A DNA stretch of 37,116 nucleotides from Candidatus Uhrbacteria bacterium (GTDB lineage: Bacteria; Patescibacteriota; Patescibacteriia; JACQRZ01), in contig JACQSA010000018.1 in assembly GCA_016206145.1 (NCBI GenBank), forward strand, positions 1 through 37,116, in the 5' to 3' direction. A model generated the notes under the pieces. It was not told the DNA's origin. It searched no databases and worked only from the letters and a program-made list of their open reading frames with translations. The position numbers and the translations under genes were made by a program. Positions 21,576 to 30,376 of this stretch are shown piece after piece. The number at the start of each line of letters is the position of its first letter. The stretch's first letter is position 1.

Positions 21576-21995
21576 TTAGACACCCCTATTTCCCCAAATA
21601 ACTCCGGATAGTGCATTGGTTACAAACCATGTAACGGCAAACGATGCAAGCACGATTGCGATGCCAATGATAGAATTTTTGATATAGCCTTTGGCAGCTG
21701 TTGTCTGTTTCTCGTCTCCTCCCGCAGTCATGTAGAGAAAACCCGCGTAGACCAAAAGGCATACCATAAAAAGCCCCAAGAATCCAAGAATAATATTAAG
21801 GATTCCCACGATAATGTCTGCAGGGTGGCGTACTTTATTCGGATCTGTAATCTGAAACGCCTTAAGAAATGTTCTCCATGCGCTTCCCTCTCCCACGACA
21901 ATATCTTTGATATTTTTTTGCGCGCTTGCTCCCTCTATGAAAGACCCTGCCGCAAAAAAAAGTGTAAGAAAAATGAAAGTAATAATGCGGTTCAT
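21576..21995 (-). CDS. VirB2/TrbC-like pilin family protein, paralog A
   Basis: Predicted secreted two-helix membrane protein of 139 residues. The ATG at 21995 gives a clean signal peptide (NRIITFIFLTLFFAAGSF...GASA-Q) and sits 10 nt after paralog B. The core is helix 1 ending LGLFMVCLLVYAGFLYMTAG, a short cytoplasmic turn with GGDEK, and helix 2 starting at IIGIAIVLASFAVTWFV. This core is shared by all seven paralogs in the window. VirB2/TrbC-type pilins polymerise into conjugative or type IV secretion filaments. No T4SS ATPases are in the window, so filament formation is inferred. Last gene of the array. Confidence 0.7.
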   Translation of the reverse strand: MNRIITFIFLTLFFAAGSFIEGASAQKNIKDIVVGEGSAWRTFLKAFQITDPNKVRHPADIIVGILNIILGFLGLFMVCLLVYAGFLYMTAGGDEKQTTAAKGYIKNSIIGIAIVLASFAVTWFVTNALSGVIWGNRGV

Positions 21996-22005
21996 AAAAA
22001 AGGTG

Positions 22006-22422
22006 TTATTCCTCCTTTGTTGCAGTGCCCACAAGCTGCGTGAGGACAAAATTTGTAATTACGTATGCAGACACCAGAATAAGAATGCCTATGACTGAGC
22101 TTAAAATACGATCTCTTGCTGATTTTGTTTTCTTCTCATCGCCGCCTGCGTTCATCCACTCTACTCCCGCAAAGATCATCTGGATCACAAAATTGATTCC
22201 AAGAAACCCCAAAAAAATCTGAATAATAAGCGCAACCATTGTCGGGATATTTTGAGGAGCAATGCCTTCGCCGAACAGGGCTTTTTTTGCGTTTTGTAAT
22301 TGATCGCTCAGTGGTCCAGCGGCGCTTGCTCCAAAACCCGCAAGCACAAGCGCACTCACTACTACTCCCCCGGTAGCTATTTGTATTGCTCGATTTACTA
22401 TGTGTGATATTCGATGGAGCAT
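22006..22422 (-). CDS. VirB2/TrbC-like pilin family protein, paralog B
   Basis: 138 residues. A long N-terminal hydrophobic leader (to about residue 35, GFGASAA-G) is followed by a ~25-residue mature N-terminus (QLQNAKKALFGEG). The shared core is helix 1 with IFLGFLGINFVIQMIFAG, turn NAGGDEKKTKSA, and helix 2 (VIGILILVSAYVITNFV). It lies 8 nt after C and 10 nt before A. Same family and caveats as the other paralogs. Its mature part diverges most in the region before helix 1, which would be exposed on the surface in a VirB2-like topology. Confidence 0.7.
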   Translation of the reverse strand: MLHRISHIVNRAIQIATGGVVVSALVLAGFGASAAGPLSDQLQNAKKALFGEGIAPQNIPTMVALIIQIFLGFLGINFVIQMIFAGVEWMNAGGDEKKTKSARDRILSSVIGILILVSAYVITNFVLTQLVGTATKEE

Positions 22423-22430
22423 ATCTTTTA

Positions 22431-22862
22431 TTATTTTGGGAATCCTGCGGATTCTTGAAGCGCGCCGATAAAAAATTCTGTTATTGCATACGCGCCCAAT
22501 ACAATCGCCATGCCCACAATCGCTTGGAACATAAGCCCCATTGCCTCTTTAACTGTCTTTTCTTCGCCTTTTGCCTCCATATATTTAAACCCGCCGTAAG
22601 TAAAGAGAATCAAAAAGATGAGGCCCAAAAGTCCGAGCGCAACTCGAATGACATCGCCCACTACTGTGCCAATGGTCCGCGTGGTGTCTATCCCCACTCG
22701 CTCGCCTACATTAGTAAGCATCACATTGATTTTGCCTCGCACGCTTCCTTCCGGCGCTTCCGTTTCTGCGGCTATCGGTAAGGCAAACAACATTGCCGCC
22801 TGCATCACGAACAGCATTGCGCACATCATCCCAACTAACATATTTTTACTTGTAAGGCTCAT
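22431..22862 (-). CDS. VirB2/TrbC-like pilin family protein, paralog C
   Basis: 143 residues. The N-terminal leader contains two closely spaced hydrophobic runs rich in Met (NMLVGMMCAMLFVMQAAMLF) and probably ends at IAAE. An extended mature segment (GKINVMLTNVGERVGIDTT) precedes helix 1 (ALGLLGLIFLILFTYGGF), turn KYMEAKGEEK, and helix 2 (IVGMAIVLGAYAITEFF). The turn has KGEEK instead of GGxEK but keeps the Glu-Lys pair. One nucleotide separates it from D. Assignment rests on alignment of the core with its neighbours. Confidence 0.7.
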   Translation of the reverse strand: MSLTSKNMLVGMMCAMLFVMQAAMLFALPIAAETEAPEGSVRGKINVMLTNVGERVGIDTTRTIGTVVGDVIRVALGLLGLIFLILFTYGGFKYMEAKGEEKTVKEAMGLMFQAIVGMAIVLGAYAITEFFIGALQESAGFPK

Positions 22863-22863
22863 G

Positions 22864-23175
22864 CTATTTTATAATATTTTTGGTAAGCTCGCCAACAACG
22901 AAATTCGTAATCGCAAATGCCGCAAGGATGAGTATAAGTCCGACAACCGAGTGGAAAATAAAACCGCGAGCGGCATTCACTTTTTTTTCTTGCCCTTCCG
23001 AGAGAAGCCAGAGCATGCCTCCATACACCATGAGGCCTAAAAAAATCAAGCCCAAAACAGCGAAGAGTCCGTTTAGGACTCCTCCGACAAGCTGTGGAAC
23101 ATTTCCTTGCGTATTGAAAATATTCTCTCCGGCCTTGTTCAGGCCCGTGCCATTGATATCTAGGGCGAACTTCAT
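22864..23175 (-). CDS. VirB2/TrbC-like pilin family protein, paralog D (no signal peptide)
   Basis: Only 103 residues and lacking a signal peptide: the soluble start FALDINGTGLNKAGENIF runs straight into helix 1 (LNGLFAVLGLIFLGLMVYGG), turn LLSEGQEKKVNAARG and helix 2 (VVGLILILAAFAITNFV). The preceding gene ends 11 nt upstream, so no longer start is available in this frame. It may be inserted by its first helix, be a minor subunit, or be an assembly protein. It is closest to C and F at the turn (EGQEK). Family assignment rests on the shared core. Confidence 0.65.
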   Translation of the reverse strand: MKFALDINGTGLNKAGENIFNTQGNVPQLVGGVLNGLFAVLGLIFLGLMVYGGMLWLLSEGQEKKVNAARGFIFHSVVGLILILAAFAITNFVVGELTKNIIK

Positions 23176-23186
23176 TGGACTCTAGC

Positions 23187-23582
23187 TCATCCAAGGAGCT
23201 GTTCTTCAAATGTAGTAACAACAAAGTATGCAATGCCCCATGCGGCGAGGATTAAGACCAAACCAATAAACCCCTGAATCAAAAGTTTGCGGGCTGTTTC
23301 AAGGCGCTTTTCATTGCCACCGGCAGTCATCCACATAAAACCTGCTGCCAAAATGATAACCACCGCGATCAACCCGAGGAACCCAAGAAGGATATTGAGA
23401 ACCTTAATAATAGTGTCTCGAAGGTCTTGACGGGCCTGTTGAGGAACGCTTACATTTTGGAATAAGTTTACTCCCCTTCCAAATTCTTCCACACCATAAG
23501 CAGTCGGCGCGGGCACTACTGCAATTGCCGCCATACTGAGCATCCCCATAAGAAGTGATGTCGCGAGTATTCGCTTGATCAT
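23187..23582 (-). CDS. VirB2/TrbC-like pilin family protein, paralog E
   Basis: 131 residues with a classical signal peptide (IKRILATSLLMGMLSMAAIA, ending near APTAYG). The mature segment EFGRGVNLFQNVSVPQQ leads to helix 1 (LNILLGFLGLIAVVIILAAG), turn MTAGGNEKRLETA and helix 2 (FIGLVLILAAWGIAYFV). The GFxWMTAGGxEK core is the best match to the consensus of the set and to TrbC/VirB2-like proteins often annotated in CPR genomes. It opens the tight A-E run. A 96-bp gap with an inverted repeat separates it from F. Confidence 0.75.
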   Translation of the reverse strand: MIKRILATSLLMGMLSMAAIAVVPAPTAYGVEEFGRGVNLFQNVSVPQQARQDLRDTIIKVLNILLGFLGLIAVVIILAAGFMWMTAGGNEKRLETARKLLIQGFIGLVLILAAWGIAYFVVTTFEEQLLG

Positions 23583-23612
23583 ATATATTCGTTAATAAAT
23601 TATTTCCTTGTC

Positions 23613-23632
23613 ATTCCTGCGTAGGCGGGAAT
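23613..23632. repeat. palindromic intergenic repeat between pilin paralogs
   Basis: ATTCCTGC, GTAG and GCGGGAAT form an 8-bp stem (one G-T pair) with a 4-nt loop, in the gap between F and E. It is of the TTCCCGC...GCGGGAA type common as interspersed bacterial repeats. In the F-to-E transcript it could act as a processing or attenuation hairpin. Confidence 0.6.
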
Positions 23633-23678
23633 CTAGACTATTATACCACTTCTATAAAAACCGCAATGGGGATAAAGA

Positions 23679-24164
23679 TTACGAACTATATTCAGGCTTT
23701 GAATCTCCTCCACCTGGCGCAGTACTATCCATAATTGCAGGTGGCGCGGATGCCGGAGCCGCCCCACCACCCCCACCAGGCGGTACTGTAGGCGGCAACA
23801 GAATCCCGAGCAAAAACTGCACTATGATATAACTCCCAAATATAAGCGCTAGACCCAATGCCCCCCACGTCAAGGTATCCCAACCCTGTTTGATCTTTTT
23901 CTCTTGTCCCTGCGCGGTCATCCATGTAAACCCGCCATACAGAAAAATCAAAAGCGCAACTGTTCCCACAATGCCGAATAAACCTTTAAGGATGAGATTG
24001 ACAAGCTCGGGAACATTGTCGGCAGAAATCGGATTGACTAGACACACATACTTTGATTTATCACACTCCTGCGCGGCAAAAGCTACTGACGACGACAAAA
24101 AAAACGCACACATCACTATTGCCAGCACACTCACTGCGAATTTTTGTTTTTGATTTCTGCTCAT
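23679..24164 (-). CDS. VirB2/TrbC-like pilin family protein, paralog F with Pro/Gly-rich tail
   Basis: 161 residues. The signal peptide (KFAVSVLAIVMCAFFLSSS...AFA-AQ) is followed by a two-Cys mature N-terminus (ECDKSKYVC). The core is helix 1 (LFGIVGTVALLIFLYGGF), turn MTAQGQEKKIKQG and helix 2 (ALGLALIFGSYIIVQFL). After helix 2 a flexible extension starts at PPTVPPGGGGGAAP and ends KPEYSS. The Cys pair may form a disulfide outside. It is first in the array direction. It has no clear promoter, although TACAAT lies just ahead of the ATG. The tail is unlike the other short paralogs. Confidence 0.7.
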   Translation of the reverse strand: MSRNQKQKFAVSVLAIVMCAFFLSSSVAFAAQECDKSKYVCLVNPISADNVPELVNLILKGLFGIVGTVALLIFLYGGFTWMTAQGQEKKIKQGWDTLTWGALGLALIFGSYIIVQFLLGILLPPTVPPGGGGGAAPASAPPAIMDSTAPGGGDSKPEYSS

Positions 24165-24259
24165 GGTGTTTATTGTACCACCTATACCATTTAGAGTACA
24201 GAGTATGTAAATATCCCTCGACTCACATGAGATAGCAAGAATAACCTGCTTTTTTTATG

Positions 24260-24286
24260 CAAAATGGGATCTGACACGGTTTTTCC
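24260..24286 (+). repeat. degenerate ~26-bp repeat, copy 1
   Basis: Begins CAAAATGGGATCTGACACGG and runs into TTTTTCC. Near-copies in the same orientation are at 24941-24966 and 25949-25974, with a half copy at 25814-25828. These copies bracket the accessory patch. Confidence 0.6.
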
Positions 24287-24321
24287 ACAAAAGACCAAAA
24301 CAACAAGGTTTTGCGGAGTAA

Positions 24322-24579
24322 CTATTCATACAATTGTGCATGTGTCCCAACCTGATCAAAAACAATCTCTTCCCCGCGTATTAGATATAATGCTCGATAA
24401 TCTCCCGTGATGTTTATGCTTCCGTATGCTTTATACGCTCCCTTAAGTACATGGTTGTGCAGAAGCGGATCAAAGGAATTCTTGGAAAACCGTTCGACGC
24501 GTTCTACGAGTTGTTCTCGAACGCGGGAGGGAAGTTTCTTTGCCTGCTTAAGGAAATACTTCGAATACGAGATGTTCAT
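24322..24579 (-). CDS. RelE/YafQ-like mRNA interferase toxin
   Basis: 85 residues of the RelE/ParE fold: NISYSKYFLKQAKKLP at the start, then FDPLLHNHVLKGAYKAYGSI, a central INITGDYRALYLI strand and C-terminal FDQVGTHAQLYE. Such toxins cleave mRNA on the ribosome. His, Arg and Tyr near the end fit YafQ/RelE-like active sites, though the exact residues were not assigned. It overlaps the antitoxin by 4 nt (ATGA), a usual toxin-antitoxin arrangement. It is part of the accessory patch between pilin genes. Confidence 0.85.
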   Translation of the reverse strand: MNISYSKYFLKQAKKLPSRVREQLVERVERFSKNSFDPLLHNHVLKGAYKAYGSINITGDYRALYLIRGEEIVFDQVGTHAQLYE

Positions 24580-24857
24580 CGAAGTTCGTCGCGCAAAAAG
24601 TCAACGGCTTCTTTGTTGTTGCGAAAACGATAATAATCCCCTTTTTCGAGTTGCGCGCGTGATTGAGCAAGCATTTTACGGGTCCGCGCATTTGGCACAG
24701 GCGGCATATCAAAAGTAACGCTTTCTTCCGAAGCGAAGCGACGCAATTCGTTATTCAACACTGCATTTATGCTGATACCAAGCTTCTTGGCAACCCGCAT
24801 CGCGCGATTCTTGATATGAGGATCTGTTTTTATATTGATAACGGAGTACATGTTCAT
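24576..24857 (-). CDS. RelB/DinJ-family antitoxin
   Basis: The ATG at 24857 (or 24851) gives about 93 residues. The N-terminus has the ribbon-helix-helix pattern NIKTDPHIKNRAMRVAKKLG then SINAVLNNELRRF, as in RelB/DinJ. The C-terminal half (KMLAQSRAQLEKGDYYRFRN) would wrap the toxin. An earlier frame start at 24899 is unlikely, because it would put the -35 element and the operator inside the coding region. The operator lies immediately upstream, so the pair is probably autoregulated. Confidence 0.83.
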   Translation of the reverse strand: MNMYSVINIKTDPHIKNRAMRVAKKLGISINAVLNNELRRFASEESVTFDMPPVPNARTRKMLAQSRAQLEKGDYYRFRNNKEAVDFLRDELR

Positions 24858-24893
24858 ACCAAAAGTATACACTTTTGGTACTTTCAGTGTCAA
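24857..24893 (-). promoter_or_regulatory. relBE-type promoter with overlapping palindromic operator
   Basis: On the minus strand TTGACA (24888-24893) and TATACT (24864-24869) are 18 nt apart. A perfect 10-bp inverted repeat with a 4-nt centre (24857-24880) covers the -10 and most of the spacer. Transcription would begin at or next to the ATG at 24857, giving a leaderless message if that start is used. A repressing antitoxin-toxin complex is the expected ligand. Confidence 0.75.
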
Positions 24894-24940
24894 GAGCAAG
24901 TTTTAATGGTCGCAATCTGATGGGGCCTCTGCCTGTCATA

Positions 24941-24966
24941 CAAAATGGGACCATGCATCGTTTTCC
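24941..24966 (+). repeat. degenerate ~26-bp repeat, copy 2
   Basis: Begins CAAAATGGGACC and ends TTTTCC, with a divergent middle. It lies upstream of the RelBE pair, opposite copy 1 on the other side. Confidence 0.5.
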
Positions 24967-24981
24967 TAGAATATTTTCGCA

Positions 24982-25074
24982 TCAGATCACAGACCCGGGT
25001 ATCCTCTTTTTGTGTAGATCGACAATCTCTTTTCTCTGTAATGGCGTTAATCTCGTTCTTTTGTGAATAGTCAT
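24982..25074 (-). pseudogene. IS481-like transposase N-terminal remnant
   Basis: The ATG at 25074 starts a 30-codon frame with TIHKRTRLTPLQRKEIVDLH, similar to the N-terminal HTH of IS481-family transposases. The frame stops at 24982, but a shift near 24993 exposes VCDLMRKYS, which would continue the same domain. No DDE catalytic core is present. It is a decayed fragment. Confidence 0.45.
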
Positions 25075-25104
25075 ACGGTTGCCTACAGGATTTCTTACGT
25101 CTTA

Positions 25105-25418
25105 CTATTCAATACGAACCCCCGTTTTTTTTATTTCATACACAATCGGATCGGCGCTGCTTGCAAATTCTTTCACTGTAAACCCATGAGGTTCAATGCG
25201 TGTATCCACACTCATTCTTAAATCCCAAAGCAATAACCTGTTTTTATCCAAGTTCCTCTGCAATTTGTCAGAAACAACTGCGACATCAATGTCGCTCCAT
25301 ATATTTGCCTTTTTTTTGCGTGCGAGCCAAAAAGGTACATCGCAGAAAACGGATATTGCGCTTGACGCAACGCACGTGCGTAACGCTTTGCTATTTTTTT
25401 CGCTTGACTTCTTGGCAT
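25105..25418 (-). pseudogene. MNT-type nucleotidyltransferase, frameshifted at an A8 run
   Basis: The ATG at 25418 starts SQAKKIAKRYARALRQ then FSAMYLFGSHAKK, the first part of the GSxAKG...SDxDxxV signature. The frame breaks at eight A's on the minus strand (forward T-run 25311-25318). The -1 frame continues with ANIWSDIDVAVVSDKLQRN and ends KKTGVRIE at 25105. The two halves fit a complete small nucleotidyltransferase of the minimal NTase (MNT) type, often paired with HEPN proteins. Options are a true pseudogene, a sequencing error, or -1 slippage (A AAA AAA). No HEPN partner was recognised. Confidence 0.7.
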
Positions 25419-25642
25419 AGCCGTTTATACAATGAATCAATTTTAGACTTAAAAATCCTCATATACATGAGAGGTGTTTTTCGTTGTGTGAAAAATAGAG
25501 AGGTGTATGCCATTTTTCGAGTTTCGTAATTCAGAACAGAATTGGAGGTGGGGAAGCCTTTGGAGGTGAGAGTACGGGAATCAATCACAAAAAGCATTTC
25601 TCGATGAATGGCAGGCCAAACGTCCTCATGATTATCTTTCAT
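25391..25642 (-). CDS. hypothetical small protein overlapping the NTase start
   Basis: An 83-codon frame with basic C-terminus (SLYKRLCQEVKRKK) overlaps the NTase start by 28 nt and the transposase remnant on the other strand. I recognise no domain. It could be a partner of the NTase, but the overlap with a coding remnant makes it doubtful. Confidence 0.2.
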   Translation of the reverse strand: MKDNHEDVWPAIHREMLFVIDSRTLTSKGFPTSNSVLNYETRKMAYTSLFFTQRKTPLMYMRIFKSKIDSLYKRLCQEVKRKK

Positions 25643-25818
25643 GGGTCAACCAAAATGAGTCTGATGAAAAAATTGAACGACTGCGTACATGCGTGAATCG
25701 CGGGCAGCCGTTTGGTAGTAATTCATGGACGGAAAGAATAACAAAAGAGTGGATACCTGAGTCAACTTTTCGCAGAGAAGGAAGGCCGAGTAAGCAAAGA
25801 ACTAAAAACTATTCCTGA
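25570..25818 (+). pseudogene. C-terminal remnant of REP-associated tyrosine transposase (RAYT, Y1 family)
   Basis: A plus-strand frame without its own start reads LDEWQAKRPHDYLSWVNQ, then ERLRTCVNRGQPFGSNSWTE and REGRPSK before TGA at 25816. The VNRGxPFGSxSWTE and GRPxK motifs are characteristic of the C-terminal tail of IS200-related RAYT proteins. The catalytic HUH and Tyr region is missing. The stop codon overlaps a half copy of the local repeat (25814-25828), consistent with RAYT genes lying next to their cognate repeats. Confidence 0.75.
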
Positions 25819-25821
25819 CAC

Positions 25822-25913
25822 CGTTTCCACCGTTTCCACGCGGGCTCACGGAAGTTTCACCGACATTTTTAAGTGATAGAACCGAGGCGGTTTCACCGAC
25901 CTAGTTAAATGAT
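25822..25913 (+). repeat. short direct repeats after the transposase remnant
   Basis: CGTTTCCAC occurs twice in tandem (25822-25830, 25831-25839). A 24-nt unit beginning GTTTCACCGAC occurs at 25854-25877 and 25890-25913, identical at about 20 positions, with a 36-bp period. No spacer structure of a CRISPR is present. Confidence 0.55.
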
Positions 25914-25948
25914 TTGACACGGGGGTGTATTCGATTTCACTGATGAAA

Positions 25949-25974
25949 AAAAATGAGACCTAACACTGTTTTCC
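25949..25974 (+). repeat. degenerate ~26-bp repeat, copy 3
   Basis: AAAAATGAGACCTAACACTG then TTTTCC matches copy 1 at about 22 positions. It ends 4 bp before the stop of the large pilin-like gene and marks the right edge of the accessory patch. Confidence 0.6.
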
Positions 25975-25978
25975 TTAA

Positions 25979-27025
25979 TCATAATGCTATTGGCTCCTTA
26001 ACGGTCTCACACTCTTTCCCGATAGTATAGTCTCCAGCACTAAACGGCTTACTCCAACAAACTTCCTGCTCTGTTGCCCCAACTCGATTTGTTGGAAAGG
26101 GACAGAAATAAGCAGGCGTATTTTTAATACGGACTGGAGTAGCGTTAAATTCTTCTTGTAAAAATTGCTTGCACCTTTCTAGCTTCATCCGACGAGCTAC
26201 TTTCCCACCGTCAACCTTCACTCCACAACATCCTCCCATTACTTCGCTTATATCAAGACCTCCCCCCCCGCAAAAACCATTATAACAGTTCCCTGATACA
26301 CATTCACAATCTGATTTGCATGCTTTTGCATTCGCAATGGTTCCCCTACAAGCTGTGCCTGATGGTACAGTTGGAGGAGGAGGAGTAATAATTTTTGCAG
26401 GAGCGGCAAGGGCTTTTGCGAGTTCTGATGATGACATTGCCCGGTAACAAAGGGCATCCTTATGTATTTGATACCACTGCTCGCCAGCGCTTTGAAACGC
26501 AAGCTTCCCTGAACCTCCCGTGAGCGTCACAACGATCAAGTTCACTCCGACCCATGCGCCGAATACTATTAAAAGTCCGATCACGGCATTTTTCAATGTA
26601 GTCATACCTGCCTGTATGCGTTTTTCTGTTCCCCCGGCAATCAACCATTGAAACCCGCCCCAGACAAACATCAAAAGCGCAAGACTTCCGACCACACTGA
26701 GAAGCAAGTGATATGCTGACAAGACAGTCTGGACAATACCTGAAAGGCTGTGATAACAAGATATTTCTTCCCCATCATGAATGACACTGCCACATCCGCC
26801 AATCAAAAAACCTGTGGCTCCCTTCTCTGGTCGAGATCCTTTAATCAATTCGTTATCTAAGCAATATTGAACAGCCTCAACAGGCGCTGCAAAAAAAATC
26901 AATGAAGCCGAAAAGACAATCATCGTCAATACAGATACAAGTTTCCAGCTATGAAAGAATCTGTGGCTCCCCGATCGGACCGAGGATGATACTATAGGCA
27001 TACAATCGTTCATATCAATACCCAT
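25979..27025 (-). CDS. large VirB2/TrbC-like pilin family protein with Cys-rich C-terminal domain, paralog G
   Basis: 348 residues. A hydrophobic leader (29-51, ending AAPVEA) is followed by a Cys-containing mature N-terminus. The family core is at about 105-167 (VVGSLALLMFVWGGF, turn LIAGGTEKR, helix VIGLLIVFGAWVGVNLI). A Pro-rich linker (ITPPPPTVPSG) leads to a Cys-rich domain: CRGTIANAKACKSDCECVSG, NCYNGFCGGGG and later CC, RC, FC, VC and EC. I count 16 cysteines in the mature protein. It may be a tip or adhesive subunit of the same filament system. The start (27025) lies inside the 22-bp repeat; ATG 27013 is an alternative. It ends next to a mobile repeat. Confidence 0.68.
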   Translation of the reverse strand: MGIDMNDCMPIVSSSVRSGSHRFFHSWKLVSVLTMIVFSASLIFFAAPVEAVQYCLDNELIKGSRPEKGATGFLIGGCGSVIHDGEEISCYHSLSGIVQTVLSAYHLLLSVVGSLALLMFVWGGFQWLIAGGTEKRIQAGMTTLKNAVIGLLIVFGAWVGVNLIVVTLTGGSGKLAFQSAGEQWYQIHKDALCYRAMSSSELAKALAAPAKIITPPPPTVPSGTACRGTIANAKACKSDCECVSGNCYNGFCGGGGLDISEVMGGCCGVKVDGGKVARRMKLERCKQFLQEEFNATPVRIKNTPAYFCPFPTNRVGATEQEVCWSKPFSAGDYTIGKECETVKEPIAL

Positions 27026-27038
27026 TCTGGATTATTTG
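27017..27038. repeat. 22-bp direct repeat, left copy (vapBC flank)
   Basis: Identical over 22 bp to 27732-27753. It contains the start codon of the large pilin-like gene and the stop codon of the PIN toxin. Confidence 0.9.
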
Positions 27039-27418
27039 CTTGATTGAGTAGGAGGCGTTCCTATAGAATTTCGCAAATCAAGATTTGGAATGCTCTTAAA
27101 ATCCTTGATGTTCTTTGTGATTAGTGTGAAGCTCCACTCTAAAGCCGTTGCTGCAATAAGAAGATCAGGAAGCCGAGTTGATCGTGTTCTACCAAGTTCC
27201 CCTGCGCGTTGCGCGATACTATTGTCTACGCTCACTGGCGTCATTATGCTCATTAGATCAATCAGTGATCGAATGTCATCATCTCCTAACCCGGGATAGC
27301 GTAACGCTTCAGCGACTGTAATAGTTGAGATATAAAATTCCGTTTCCTTTGGAGCAGAGGAAAGAATATTTTCTGAGAGATGCAAGAGAAGAATATTTGT
27401 GTCAAGTAACACTCGCAT
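27032..27418 (-). CDS. vapC: VapC-like PIN-domain ribonuclease toxin
   Basis: 128 residues with PIN signatures: first Asp in VLLDTNILLLHL, Glu in TVAEALRYPG, Asp in RLPDLLIAATAL, and Asp in ITKNIKDF. These acidic residues coordinate metal for RNA cleavage. VapC toxins typically cut tRNA or rRNA. It starts 18 nt after the putative antitoxin. Its stop codon TAA comes from the duplicated 22-bp repeat, so the coding region ends exactly at the insertion boundary. Confidence 0.85.
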   Translation of the reverse strand: MRVLLDTNILLLHLSENILSSAPKETEFYISTITVAEALRYPGLGDDDIRSLIDLMSIMTPVSVDNSIAQRAGELGRTRSTRLPDLLIAATALEWSFTLITKNIKDFKSIPNLDLRNSIGTPPTQSSK

Positions 27419-27436: not shown

Positions 27437-27673
27437 CTAATTCCAATCGTTGCGAACCTTCCTCTGCCAGATAAGAATATCTTTTTCCGAATATTTATTA
27501 CGCGTTACTCCTCCCGTACGTGTAAGAATACTGTTTTTTGTACTGTAATTGCCAGAAACTGGAGAAATGCAAACAAGGCGGTCCTTTAATCGATGAAGCG
27601 CTTCATCGATATGCTCAAGTTCGCGATATATTGACTGAGACTGAATTGGTTCTTGGTGCATATTGGGTTCCAT
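27437..27673 (-). CDS. probable VapB-type antitoxin
   Basis: The ATG at 27673 (or 27661) gives about 78 residues. QSQSIYRELEHIDEALHRLK could form a helical hairpin, and the C-terminus is basic (KYSEKDILIWQRKVRNDWN). I do not recognise a standard AbrB, RHH or Phd domain. The antitoxin role is inferred from size, its place directly upstream of the PIN toxin, and its own promoter. A longer GTG-started frame from 27721 would run through the promoter. Confidence 0.5.
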   Translation of the reverse strand: MEPNMHQEPIQSQSIYRELEHIDEALHRLKDRLVCISPVSGNYSTKNSILTRTGGVTRNKYSEKDILIWQRKVRNDWN

Positions 27674-27681
27674 ATAATTCA

Positions 27682-27710
27682 ATACTAGCAAATAACGCAG
27701 TATAAAGCAA
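27682..27710 (-). promoter_or_regulatory. promoter of the VapBC-type cassette
   Basis: On the minus strand TTGCTT (27705-27710) and TAGTAT (27682-27687) have a 17-nt spacer. Start near 27675 would place it beside the antitoxin ATG at 27673. The promoter is inside the inserted segment, so the cassette carries its own expression signal. Confidence 0.5.
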
Positions 27711-27729
27711 TCCACACGCACCGTTCAAC

Positions 27730-29157
27730 CTAATACCCATTCTGGATTATTTGTTTCGTTTTAGTAAGCAACCCCCCAAAAAAAGTCTTTTGTTCTTCCG
27801 GAGTGCCGCCTTTGCCAAGCAGTGCTTCGGTGATCAGGCTCGCCATGGCGCGCTCCATTGTATCCGGATTTTTTCCATAAAACCATGTTTTTGCCATCAG
27901 GAGTTGTGCCGCAAACGGATAGAGCGCATCAGCCTTTTTCTGACCCTCGATCAGATCTCGAAGCGCAGTCGGTTTGCGCGTACTCTCAAGATATTTCTGC
28001 GCTTGTTCTTTTGCAGTGGCAAACAAAAGAAAATCCCATGCATAATCTTTACGCGCGGATCTTTTTGATACGACTTCAACCCAATAATTCGCCATAGTCG
28101 CAGGAACTTCGGGATTTAATTGAGGCAACGGCACCACTCCATAGCGGATCCGCGGATTGAGTGCGCGCAGCTGGTCCAAATGATACGAATACCCAAACAT
28201 CATTGCAGTACGCCCTTGAGTGAATGCCTCAAAGCTGTCTGAAAATTTCTCATCCCATGTATACAATTCCGAAGTGGGTGAGGCAAAATCAGTATAAAAC
28301 ATCAATGCGTTTATGGAGGGGTGCACTGAATCGTCTTTGATGTAATCAGGAATCCTGTCAAAAGTAATGCCCGTAGGGCTGCTCATTTGCGCGCCATTCT
28401 GCATCATCAAGGTAGCAAGGATATCTGTCGATCGCTGCACACTGCCCGCTCCCCCGAGCGCGGCACCGGAAATTTTGATCTCGCGCGTATTGGGATCGCG
28501 GACAGTTAAGCGCCCTTCAGAAACCATATTGGTAAACTCTGTCCAGCTTCGTGGCGGAGCTCCAATGCCTGCGTTATTAAACAGGTCTTTGTTGTAAAAA
28601 AGCGCAAGCACATCGACAAAATATGGAACCCCCACAAGAACTGTTTTGCCGTCAATATTCCTTATGACATCGCTGGTTACTGCGTCAATAAATTGCTCTT
28701 GCAATTCACGAATGGTGGGCGCAGGAATATCTTGCAGTTTGATGTCTGTTTTTTTTTGAAATCCGCTTGACGTCTGAATAAAAAACGCAATCTTTCTGGT
28801 GTCAGGCACCGGCTCAATTTTGGGTTCATATTTCCCCATCCATGTATTGTGGATAGAAAAAATATCCGGTCCGCGATTTTCTGCCAAAGCATTGACTAAT
28901 TCAGACTCATATTCTTCAAATCGAAGCCGCCTATATTGGATAGTAACATTCGGATGCTTTTGTTGATATTCGGCAATAATATCCTGTATCGCTTGATCGC
29001 CATCAAACACTCGCCAATAAGTAAGTGTGACGGGCAGTTTTGCCTCTTTGAGTTCTTTAGACGACGGACCTTTTGGTTTTAAGGCGATAAGCGCTGCAAG
29101 CACCCCAAAGATTACTACAAGCGCGAGTCCTAAAATAAGCAGTATTCGATTTTGCAT
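27730..29157 (-). CDS. ABC-type sugar solute-binding-like protein, membrane-anchored
   Basis: Family 1 extracellular solute-binding protein of 475 residues from the ATG at 29157. An N-terminal uncleaved-looking helix (RILLILGLALVVIFGVLAAL) replaces a lipobox Cys. The mature part has VTLTYWRVFDGDQAIQDII, then GPDIFSIHNTWM, FYNKDLFNNAGI and FTQGRTAMMFGYS, all usual in this fold. No permease or ATPase is in the window, so it could bind a ligand for another purpose. It starts 4 nt after the presenilin-like gene. Its last codons (QIIQNGY) are encoded by the 22-bp repeat. Next to it sits the inserted VapBC cassette. Confidence 0.8.
   Translation of the reverse strand: MQNRILLILGLALVVIFGVLAALIALKPKGPSSKELKEAKLPVTLTYWRVFDGDQAIQDIIAEYQQKHPNVTIQYRRLRFEEYESELVNALAENRGPDIFSIHNTWMGKYEPKIEPVPDTRKIAFFIQTSSGFQKKTDIKLQDIPAPTIRELQEQFIDAVTSDVIRNIDGKTVLVGVPYFVDVLALFYNKDLFNNAGIGAPPRSWTEFTNMVSEGRLTVRDPNTREIKISGAALGGAGSVQRSTDILATLMMQNGAQMSSPTGITFDRIPDYIKDDSVHPSINALMFYTDFASPTSELYTWDEKFSDSFEAFTQGRTAMMFGYSYHLDQLRALNPRIRYGVVPLPQLNPEVPATMANYWVEVVSKRSARKDYAWDFLLFATAKEQAQKYLESTRKPTALRDLIEGQKKADALYPFAAQLLMAKTWFYGKNPDTMERAMASLITEALLGKGGTPEEQKTFFGGLLTKTKQIIQNGY
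27732..27753. repeat. 22-bp direct repeat, right copy (vapBC flank)
   Basis: Second exact copy, 715 bp from 27017. It encodes the C-terminus of the solute-binding-like protein. Confidence 0.9.
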
Positions 29158-29161
29158 ATGA

Positions 29162-29998
29162 TTAGTATATCCCAAGCGCTGCAAATGCACCACCGAGCGC
29201 ACCGATCGTGATAAGAGGAAGCGCAGGAATAGGATGATGGCGGCTTACAATCAAAAGATGATTCAGTGTGATGCCCACCAGCATGCCTGCAACGCTCGCG
29301 ATTGCCGCAGGGAGGCTTGCGCGCACAAGGCTCGCAGAAAAGATCATGGGCAGTACGATATCCCCTCCTCCAACGATTAAAAAGCCGCTGCCAGGCTGCA
29401 CGTCGCGGATCTGCGCAAAATACTTTTTCACTGTATCCGGAACAAACAACGCAAAACTTGCTTGGCGCCGTATCAATTCATGCGCAAGAAGGATCATGTG
29501 CTTTGTAATGTACACAGCAATGATGTCATATACGGATAATGCCAAAAGGAGAAGCGCGGCAAACAGAAAATGAAACTGCAGTCCGAATATCGGGCCAATG
29601 CCCACGGCGGCTGCAATGACAACCATATTATGCACCCATACGGCAGGAAGAAGAAACAAAGCGCATAAAAACAGTGCGGAAACAAGCAGAGAAAGCTCGG
29701 GCGGAAACACTAAAAGAAAAAGCTTCATAAGTCCAAGAAAAACCACAAACAAAAACAAAAACCGATACAATGCACGCCCTTTATATAAATGGAGGAGAAT
29801 AAGGAGCGCGGCTGTTGCTGTAAAAAAGAGGATAAGAAACTGAAAAAAAACGGTTTGCGCTGATTCGGTTTCCCAAAAAAGAAACGGGTCTGTGGTCACA
29901 AATACAGGGGCTTGAGATGCGATAAACACTGCCGTGCCCTGCGCAAGCCCGAAAAGTGCAAGTGTGGAAAAAAGCAATGAGAGGCGAAGGCGAGTCAT
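29162..29998 (-). CDS. presenilin/signal-peptide-peptidase-like intramembrane aspartyl protease
   Basis: 278 residues with about nine membrane helices. Three signature elements are in order: YD in ALSVYDIIAVYITKHM (Y157, D158), G-x-GD as GGGD (210-213, D213), and PAL (258-260). The two Asp form the catalytic pair of the presenilin/SPP/GxGD family, and YD...TKHM closely resembles archaeal presenilin homologues. It would cut substrates within the membrane, possibly remnant signal peptides or a leader of neighbouring pilin-like proteins. It lies between the DoxX-like gene (15 nt) and the solute-binding-like gene (4 nt). Type IV prepilin peptidase (also GxGD) is the alternative, but PAL and YD...TKHM argue against it. 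Confidence 0.8.
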   Translation of the reverse strand: MTRLRLSLLFSTLALFGLAQGTAVFIASQAPVFVTTDPFLFWETESAQTVFFQFLILFFTATAALLILLHLYKGRALYRFLFLFVVFLGLMKLFLLVFPPELSLLVSALFLCALFLLPAVWVHNMVVIAAAVGIGPIFGLQFHFLFAALLLLALSVYDIIAVYITKHMILLAHELIRRQASFALFVPDTVKKYFAQIRDVQPGSGFLIVGGGDIVLPMIFSASLVRASLPAAIASVAGMLVGITLNHLLIVSRHHPIPALPLITIGALGGAFAALGIY

Positions 29999-30013
29999 TG
30001 AAGAAGGGTCCCG

Positions 30014-30376
30014 CTAGGCGTGATAGTGATCTTGCGTGTCGAGATACGATAATGCAATACTGGAAAAAAAGATTGCGATATCGCGAAACACCACGTCAAG
30101 AAGAGTAAGATTTGAAATGATGATCCCAAGCATTACACTTGCCGATAGTATCCCTGCAAAAAAAACATATCTTCCCCATAGAAGCCACGCAGCAAGAATC
30201 AATTCTCCAATAGAAAATAGGGTGAGGAGTGTATGTTCTGGGATCATGTCACGGATAAACTTCGGAAAGTACCCTACCCACGAAATAGGATCAAGGAATG
30301 CCGCGATGGCGGCGTATCCAAATACGCTCGCAAGGCCAATTCGAAGAAGAAAAGATACAACCCGCTCTTTTTTCAT
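30014..30376 (-). CDS. DoxX-like membrane protein
   Basis: A 120-residue protein with four hydrophobic helices: LRIGLASVFGYAAIAAFLDP, LTLFSIGELILAAWLLWG, FFAGILSASVMLGIII and FRDIAIFFSSIALSYLD. The final R-D-I-A...ALSYL helix and overall length fit the DoxX/DUF-type family. No conserved catalytic residues were identified, so the function is unknown (members are linked to redox or quinone chemistry). It opens the operon leading into the presenilin-like gene, with a promoter immediately upstream. Confidence 0.6.
   Translation of the reverse strand: MKKERVVSFLLRIGLASVFGYAAIAAFLDPISWVGYFPKFIRDMIPEHTLLTLFSIGELILAAWLLWGRYVFFAGILSASVMLGIIISNLTLLDVVFRDIAIFFSSIALSYLDTQDHYHA

Follow-up and report, generated by a model that had tools for sequence, protein, structure and literature searches.

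A presenilin-family protease homologue linked to a solute-binding-protein-like gene and VirB2-like pilins in a family of Uhrbacteria

Genes of the locus

Three closely packed genes lie on the minus strand of the window, the whole stretch of 37,116 nucleotides of Uhrbacteria DNA that was analysed. The cluster is headed by a gene for a small DoxX/MauE-like membrane protein (30014..30376), whose matches to the two families are sub-threshold (DoxX, 0.0033; MauE, 7.5e-4). After a gap of 15 bp it is followed by a gene for a 278-aa homologue of the presenilin/SPP-family GxGD intramembrane aspartyl proteases (PSH; 29162..29998; PF06550), and, 4 bp further on, by one encoding a 475-aa protein (SBP; 27730..29157; PF01547) with a family-1 solute-binding-protein-like ectodomain and an N-terminal TM anchor. 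The three ORFs are thus placed as in an earlier note on this DNA, and the start of SBP is the ATG at 29157, the listed GTG start at 29202 being an over-extension. Promoter and terminator scans at the locus gave no signal above that of shuffles. All evidence presented here is sequence-based, the genomes are MAGs, class and family labels are as assigned by the search tool, and lineage names follow the records that SBP matched best.

Downstream of SBP are seven tandem VirB2-like T4SS pilin genes (21576-27025), also on the minus strand and broken by two toxin-antitoxin insertions. The first of the array (25979..27025; PF18895 8.8e-9) encodes a T4SS (VirB2-like) pilin domain with a Cys-rich C-terminal extension; it is followed by a VirB2/TrbC-like T4SS pilin with a signal peptide (23679..24164; PF18895 4.4e-10, TrbC 9.6e-9) and by T4SS pilin paralogues at 23187..23582 (PF18895 9e-9), 22864..23175 (103 aa; E 1e-36 with a pilin profile built here), 22431..22862 (PF18895 5.3e-6), 22006..22422 (PF18895 4.6e-7) and 21576..22049 (PF18895 5.4e-8), the last of the array. 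The Cys-rich pilin that the earlier note placed after SBP is therefore present, but two ORFs intervene on the same strand: a PIN-domain VapC-like toxin gene (27032..27418; PF01850 8.8e-10) and, upstream of it, a 94-aa ORF (27437..27721), which matches no family and by its position is the probable antitoxin. A comparable extended pilin is found after SBP in most other genomes of the family; the A3 alignment of these proteins was too diverged (28% mean column identity) to be used for reasoning about the Cys-rich domain. PF18895 is found in 57/57 relatives, and T4SS machinery is encoded on contig C58 of the window's genome, in the form of a VirB4-like ATPase and PrgI/VirB3. The ATPase gene appears to be split into adjacent ORFs of 236 and 634 aa (L170, G000:C58, 4477-7098, minus strand).

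A perfect 22-bp direct repeat surrounds the PIN gene and the 94-aa ORF, one copy lying inside the 3' end of SBP (27732..27753) and the identical distal copy at the pilin start (27017..27038). The repeat duplicates the SBP 3' end (IIQNGY-stop) and forms an unusually clean insertion scar. The other insertion, inside the array, is a YafQ/ParE toxin and RelB-like antitoxin pair (24322..24899, minus strand; PF15738 5.5e-7, PF04221 3.1e-5). Pilin arrays have been invaded repeatedly, by YafQ/ParE-RelB, AbiEii and an IS200-like Y1 transposase (window 24322-24899; L029:4222-5686; L030:13122-15193).

The earlier note took YD, GGGD and PAL signatures as the mark of a GxGD intramembrane protease. A Pfam profile search bore this out, PSH matching PF06550 at E 2.9e-20 with 73.4 bits, well above the cut-off of 23.9. 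The profile for archaeal PSH, NF041679, was matched at 4e-23, but the score of 82.2 bits falls under its 125-bit equivalog cut-off; by these profiles PSH is homologous to archaeal PSH, yet outside the NF041679 equivalog. Nine helices are predicted, with the catalytic D158 of the YD motif (Y157-D158) in TM6, D213 of the GGGD motif (G210-G-G-D213) in TM7, and the PALP motif (P258-A-L-P) at 258-261. In an alignment of PSH homologues the YD and GxGD residues (Y, D, G, G, D), including both catalytic Asp, are invariant in 54/54 sequences, while the PAL motif is mostly kept, with A>G in 10. A profile of 16 PSH relatives matched PDB 4hyc at 2.9e-29 over nearly the full length and gave weak matches to human presenilins including PSEN1. 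The AlphaFold2 model has nine helices (pLDDT 90.3) with the Asp pair in TM6 and TM7, and its best Foldseek matches are archaeal PSH (4hyg/4y6k), followed by SPPL2a and PSEN1. Because the Pfam match, the profile, the model with its structural matches and the invariant Asp motifs agree, the assignment goes far beyond chance motif matching, and the prediction of a presenilin/SPP-family (A22, PF06550) protease homologue with intact active-site motifs is well supported.

SBP matches PF01547 at 6.9e-24 along most of its length and begins with a hydrophobic anchor that contains no Cys. Sequence matches to 60 PDB SBPs indicate the SBP fold of ABC sugar importers; an AlphaFold2 model of SBP was poor (pLDDT 54) and was set aside. 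SBP is the only PF01547 protein in the window's genome (95% complete), and a Pfam search of that whole genome at this completeness found no PF00528 permease. The earlier note had described a binding protein lacking ABC partners and had argued against classical sugar import, for which we likewise found no evidence here. Since 4/11 family genomes carry a single, non-adjacent PF00528 permease, sugar import may nevertheless occur in some of them. Five residues (W49, W302, Y326, W375 and W426) are identical in 90/90 orthologues, and D183 and W360 are nearly fixed and align with positions of the trehalose/maltose-binding protein 1EU8 that we take to be ligand contacts. From these fixed aromatics and aligned positions, SBP likely still binds a ligand, in this genome without a permease. 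Our best guess is that it would act as a surface receptor or adhesin at the T4SS.

Gene order in the family and across the class

PSH is present in 11/11 genomes of the window's Uhrbacteria family. SBP lies directly after it on the same strand in nine of them and after a gap of ~1 kb in G004, while the G007 contig stops at PSH and is uninformative for SBP order; pilins follow SBP wherever the contigs continue, and the order PSH-SBP-pilins is found in every informative genome. This order persists although the family PSHs are only ~40-60% identical to that of the window and the upstream genes change. The DoxX-like gene adjoins PSH in only 3/11 family genomes, the window's and the sister genomes G006 and G010, and was rejected as a member of the module. 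Of the four-gene order put forward in the earlier note, the PSH-SBP-pilin part is thus retained and the DoxX part is not. A peptide-pattern search for PSH alone in the genome contigs gave no match, and an SBP profile was used instead.

With this profile SBP was found in 348/380 genomes of the class (counts of genomes, here and elsewhere, do not represent independent events), mostly as one copy per genome; the named records that it matched include Uhr-, Falkow-, Magasanik- and Buchananbacteria. A pilin gene starts ≤700 bp downstream of SBP in 73/76 informative loci. PSH occurs in 58 of the 380 genomes, leaving 322/380 without it. Because the SBP-pilin pair is near-universal without PSH, it is an old core of the class to which PSH is a lineage-specific addition, and since the family PSHs form one clade (support 100/100), PSH most simply joined the module once, in the family ancestor. 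The SBP-pilin module and its linkage to PSH in the window's family are well supported.

In the rest of the class PSH adjoins neither SBP nor pilins. In several other families it is located in the spc ribosomal operon, either flanked by rplO-secY and adk-map or adjoining just one of these pairs. The rplO-secY pair immediately precedes it in L020, L136, L142, L145 and L153 and is separated from it by a small ORF in L147 and L150; adk is the next gene in L020, L136, L144, L145, L150, L153, L157 and L168. In the unrooted tree these PSHs fall into several deep lineages, which fits a spc position older than that at the pilin locus. The pilin-array and secY/adk placements make two separate genomic links of PSH to Sec-exported membrane proteins, the latter being an independent clue to the Sec pathway. 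In the wider phylum PSH was found in 13/379 genomes with varied neighbours, and no neighbour partner shared among the PSHs outside the class was found.

Topology and candidate substrates

The positive-inside charge bias of PSH places the N terminus and the large TM6-TM7 loop (loop 6) inside in 16/16 aligned homologues, a prediction that points to a presenilin-type (N-in) topology and not to the inverted, N-out topology of the SPP subtype. The topology of SPP is opposite to that of presenilin, and the proteins cleaved are of type I for presenilin and of type II for SPP (PMC2947513). A presenilin-type PSH would therefore favour N-out segments, for example mature pilin helix 1, as substrates; because signal peptidase should leave the mature N-terminus of the pilin outside, its first helix would be N-out and would fit. 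The SBP anchor, like signal peptides, is oriented N-in.

We tentatively propose, as a reading that falls a little short of an even chance, that PSH is an intramembrane protease for the Sec-exported membrane proteins of the module that trims or removes pilins, helix 1 first; it is from gene linkage and predicted topology that we infer pilins or SBP as its substrates. In the proposed scheme, PSH would have relocated in the Uhrbacteria family to the operon of a surface module found class-wide, and so have come under pilin-locus control; the module comprises one SBP-fold lipoprotein or anchored protein and tandem VirB2-like pilins, the T4SS ATPase gene lying elsewhere. Cleavage by signal peptidase would leave the mature pilin N-terminus outside, PSH would then cut N-out TM segments, beginning with pilin helix 1, and unassembled or surplus pilins would thereby be trimmed or removed. 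At the base of the pilus, SBP would probably recognize a glycan of the host surface or an extracellular ligand and would not feed an ABC importer. Against the pilin-trimming proposal, most genomes of the class have SBP and pilins without PSH, which is thus not needed for pilin biogenesis; the family synteny represents one relocation and could persist partly by linkage; and the neighbours of PSH outside the class vary. The surface-protein maturation or sensing module suggested in the earlier note is upheld as to the PSH-SBP-pilin linkage, but DoxX is not included and PSH is an addition to it; a role in surface-protein maturation is possible. We think it rather doubtful that PSH is dedicated to the T4SS pilus/SBP module, processing VirB2-like pilins or the SBP anchor. 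Were this so, it would be a counterpart, from the presenilin side, of the GxGD prepilin peptidases, with a natural bacterial substrate set.

PSH might instead clear remnant signal peptides of Sec-exported pilins or other proteins, in the manner of eukaryotic SPP. Its secretory context is seen twice, at the pilin array and as secY-PSH-adk in other families, its Pfam name and fold are SPP-like with SPPL2a among the best structural matches, and 53/57 genomes lack SppA (S49), although this loss is uninformative as a correlate of PSH, SppA being missing almost everywhere. However, the charge bias is presenilin-type and not SPP-type in every homologue aligned, PSH is lacking from most of the class though pilins occur in 57/57 genomes tested, and N-in signal peptides are usually handled by RseP/S2P, which is universal (57/57), so that PSH is not needed for these peptides. 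Given the N-in topology and RseP/S2P, pilin TM trimming is favoured and signal-peptide clearance, while unlikely, is its first rival.

Another route would be ectodomain release, in which PSH cuts the TM anchor of SBP and makes the bound SBP soluble. The two genes are only 4 bp apart, and the SBP anchor itself differs between lineages. The earlier note had remarked that SBP lacks a lipobox; this is true of the window but is not a property of the SBP family, as the lipobox Cys is present in 74/74 orthologous loci without PSH (two non-PSH misses, L107 and L113, looked on inspection like truncated or mis-started ORFs) and in 5/10 within the window's family. Loss of the lipobox and its replacement by a TM anchor are thus confined to the PSH family (5/10 against 0/74), a contrast whose Fisher p of 8e-6 ignores shared ancestry and is not for literal reading, and apparently took place twice. 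Two losses are few, the lipobox persists in half of the PSH-bearing family, and the SBP anchor is N-in/C-out, opposite to the presenilin-type expectation, which together make ectodomain release improbable. We give similarly little credence to a neutral relocation, with PSH in general membrane-protein quality control and a merely historical neighbourhood, for although PSH is monophyletic in the family, has other contexts elsewhere and is dispensable in most of the class, its link to SBP has survived upstream gene turnover and toxin-antitoxin insertions with very short gaps.

Comparison with known systems

Presenilin is a protease involved in Alzheimer's disease, and archaeal PSH serves as a model for gamma-secretase. 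The window PSH resembles archaeal PSH/MCMJR1 (4HYC, PF06550, NF041679) in its 9-helix fold, its YD/GxGD/PAL motifs and the full-length profile match, but is bacterial, shares only ~23% identity, scores below the NF041679 cut-off and is linked to SBP and T4SS pilins. Fold and catalytic motifs are also common to eukaryotic presenilin and SPP/SPPL (PSEN1, TMq up to 0.74), whereas the window PSH is a single small protein with no evidence of gamma-secretase partners and a predicted topology that is presenilin-like and not SPP-like. The GxGD prepilin peptidases (PilD/FlaK, A24) are likewise GxGD aspartyl membrane proteases that act on pilins; PSH belongs to a different family, however, and the pilins here are VirB2-like and not type IV prepilins. 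Little is settled about what presenilin homologues naturally do in prokaryotes, the role of the Haloferax SPP HVO_1107, for instance, being listed as unknown (PMC9263693), and the conserved operon offers candidate substrates in the seven pilins and the anchored SBP. The literature searches yielded no relevant paper on presenilin in CPR/Patescibacteria or on an SBP with a pilin in Patescibacteria.

SBP shares with the sugar-binding proteins of ABC importers (family 1, e.g. TMBP 1EU8) the PF01547 match along most of its length, but is encoded beside pilins and not MalFG-type genes, is TM-anchored in this lineage and occurs in a genome without a permease. The T4SS of Patescibacteria is thought to serve their host-dependent life. 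We regard the near-universal SBP, tied by synteny to VirB2 arrays in >90% of the class, as a strong candidate for a missing surface component of this system, and the papers searched make no mention of an SBP heading VirB2-like pilin genes class-wide (L051-L130). Tandem VirB2-like pilin arrays are a known feature of Patescibacteria (PMC12102498), and those of the window are of the same tandem PF18895 type with a T4SS ATPase in the genome; here, in contrast, SBP invariably comes first and one family has PSH in addition, and a term search of that paper found neither SBP nor presenilin mentioned. In some relatives PF18895 domains are contained within open frames of 2000-4700 aa (G036:C17, G049:C10, G052:C24 and others), which would encode giant pilin-domain proteins.
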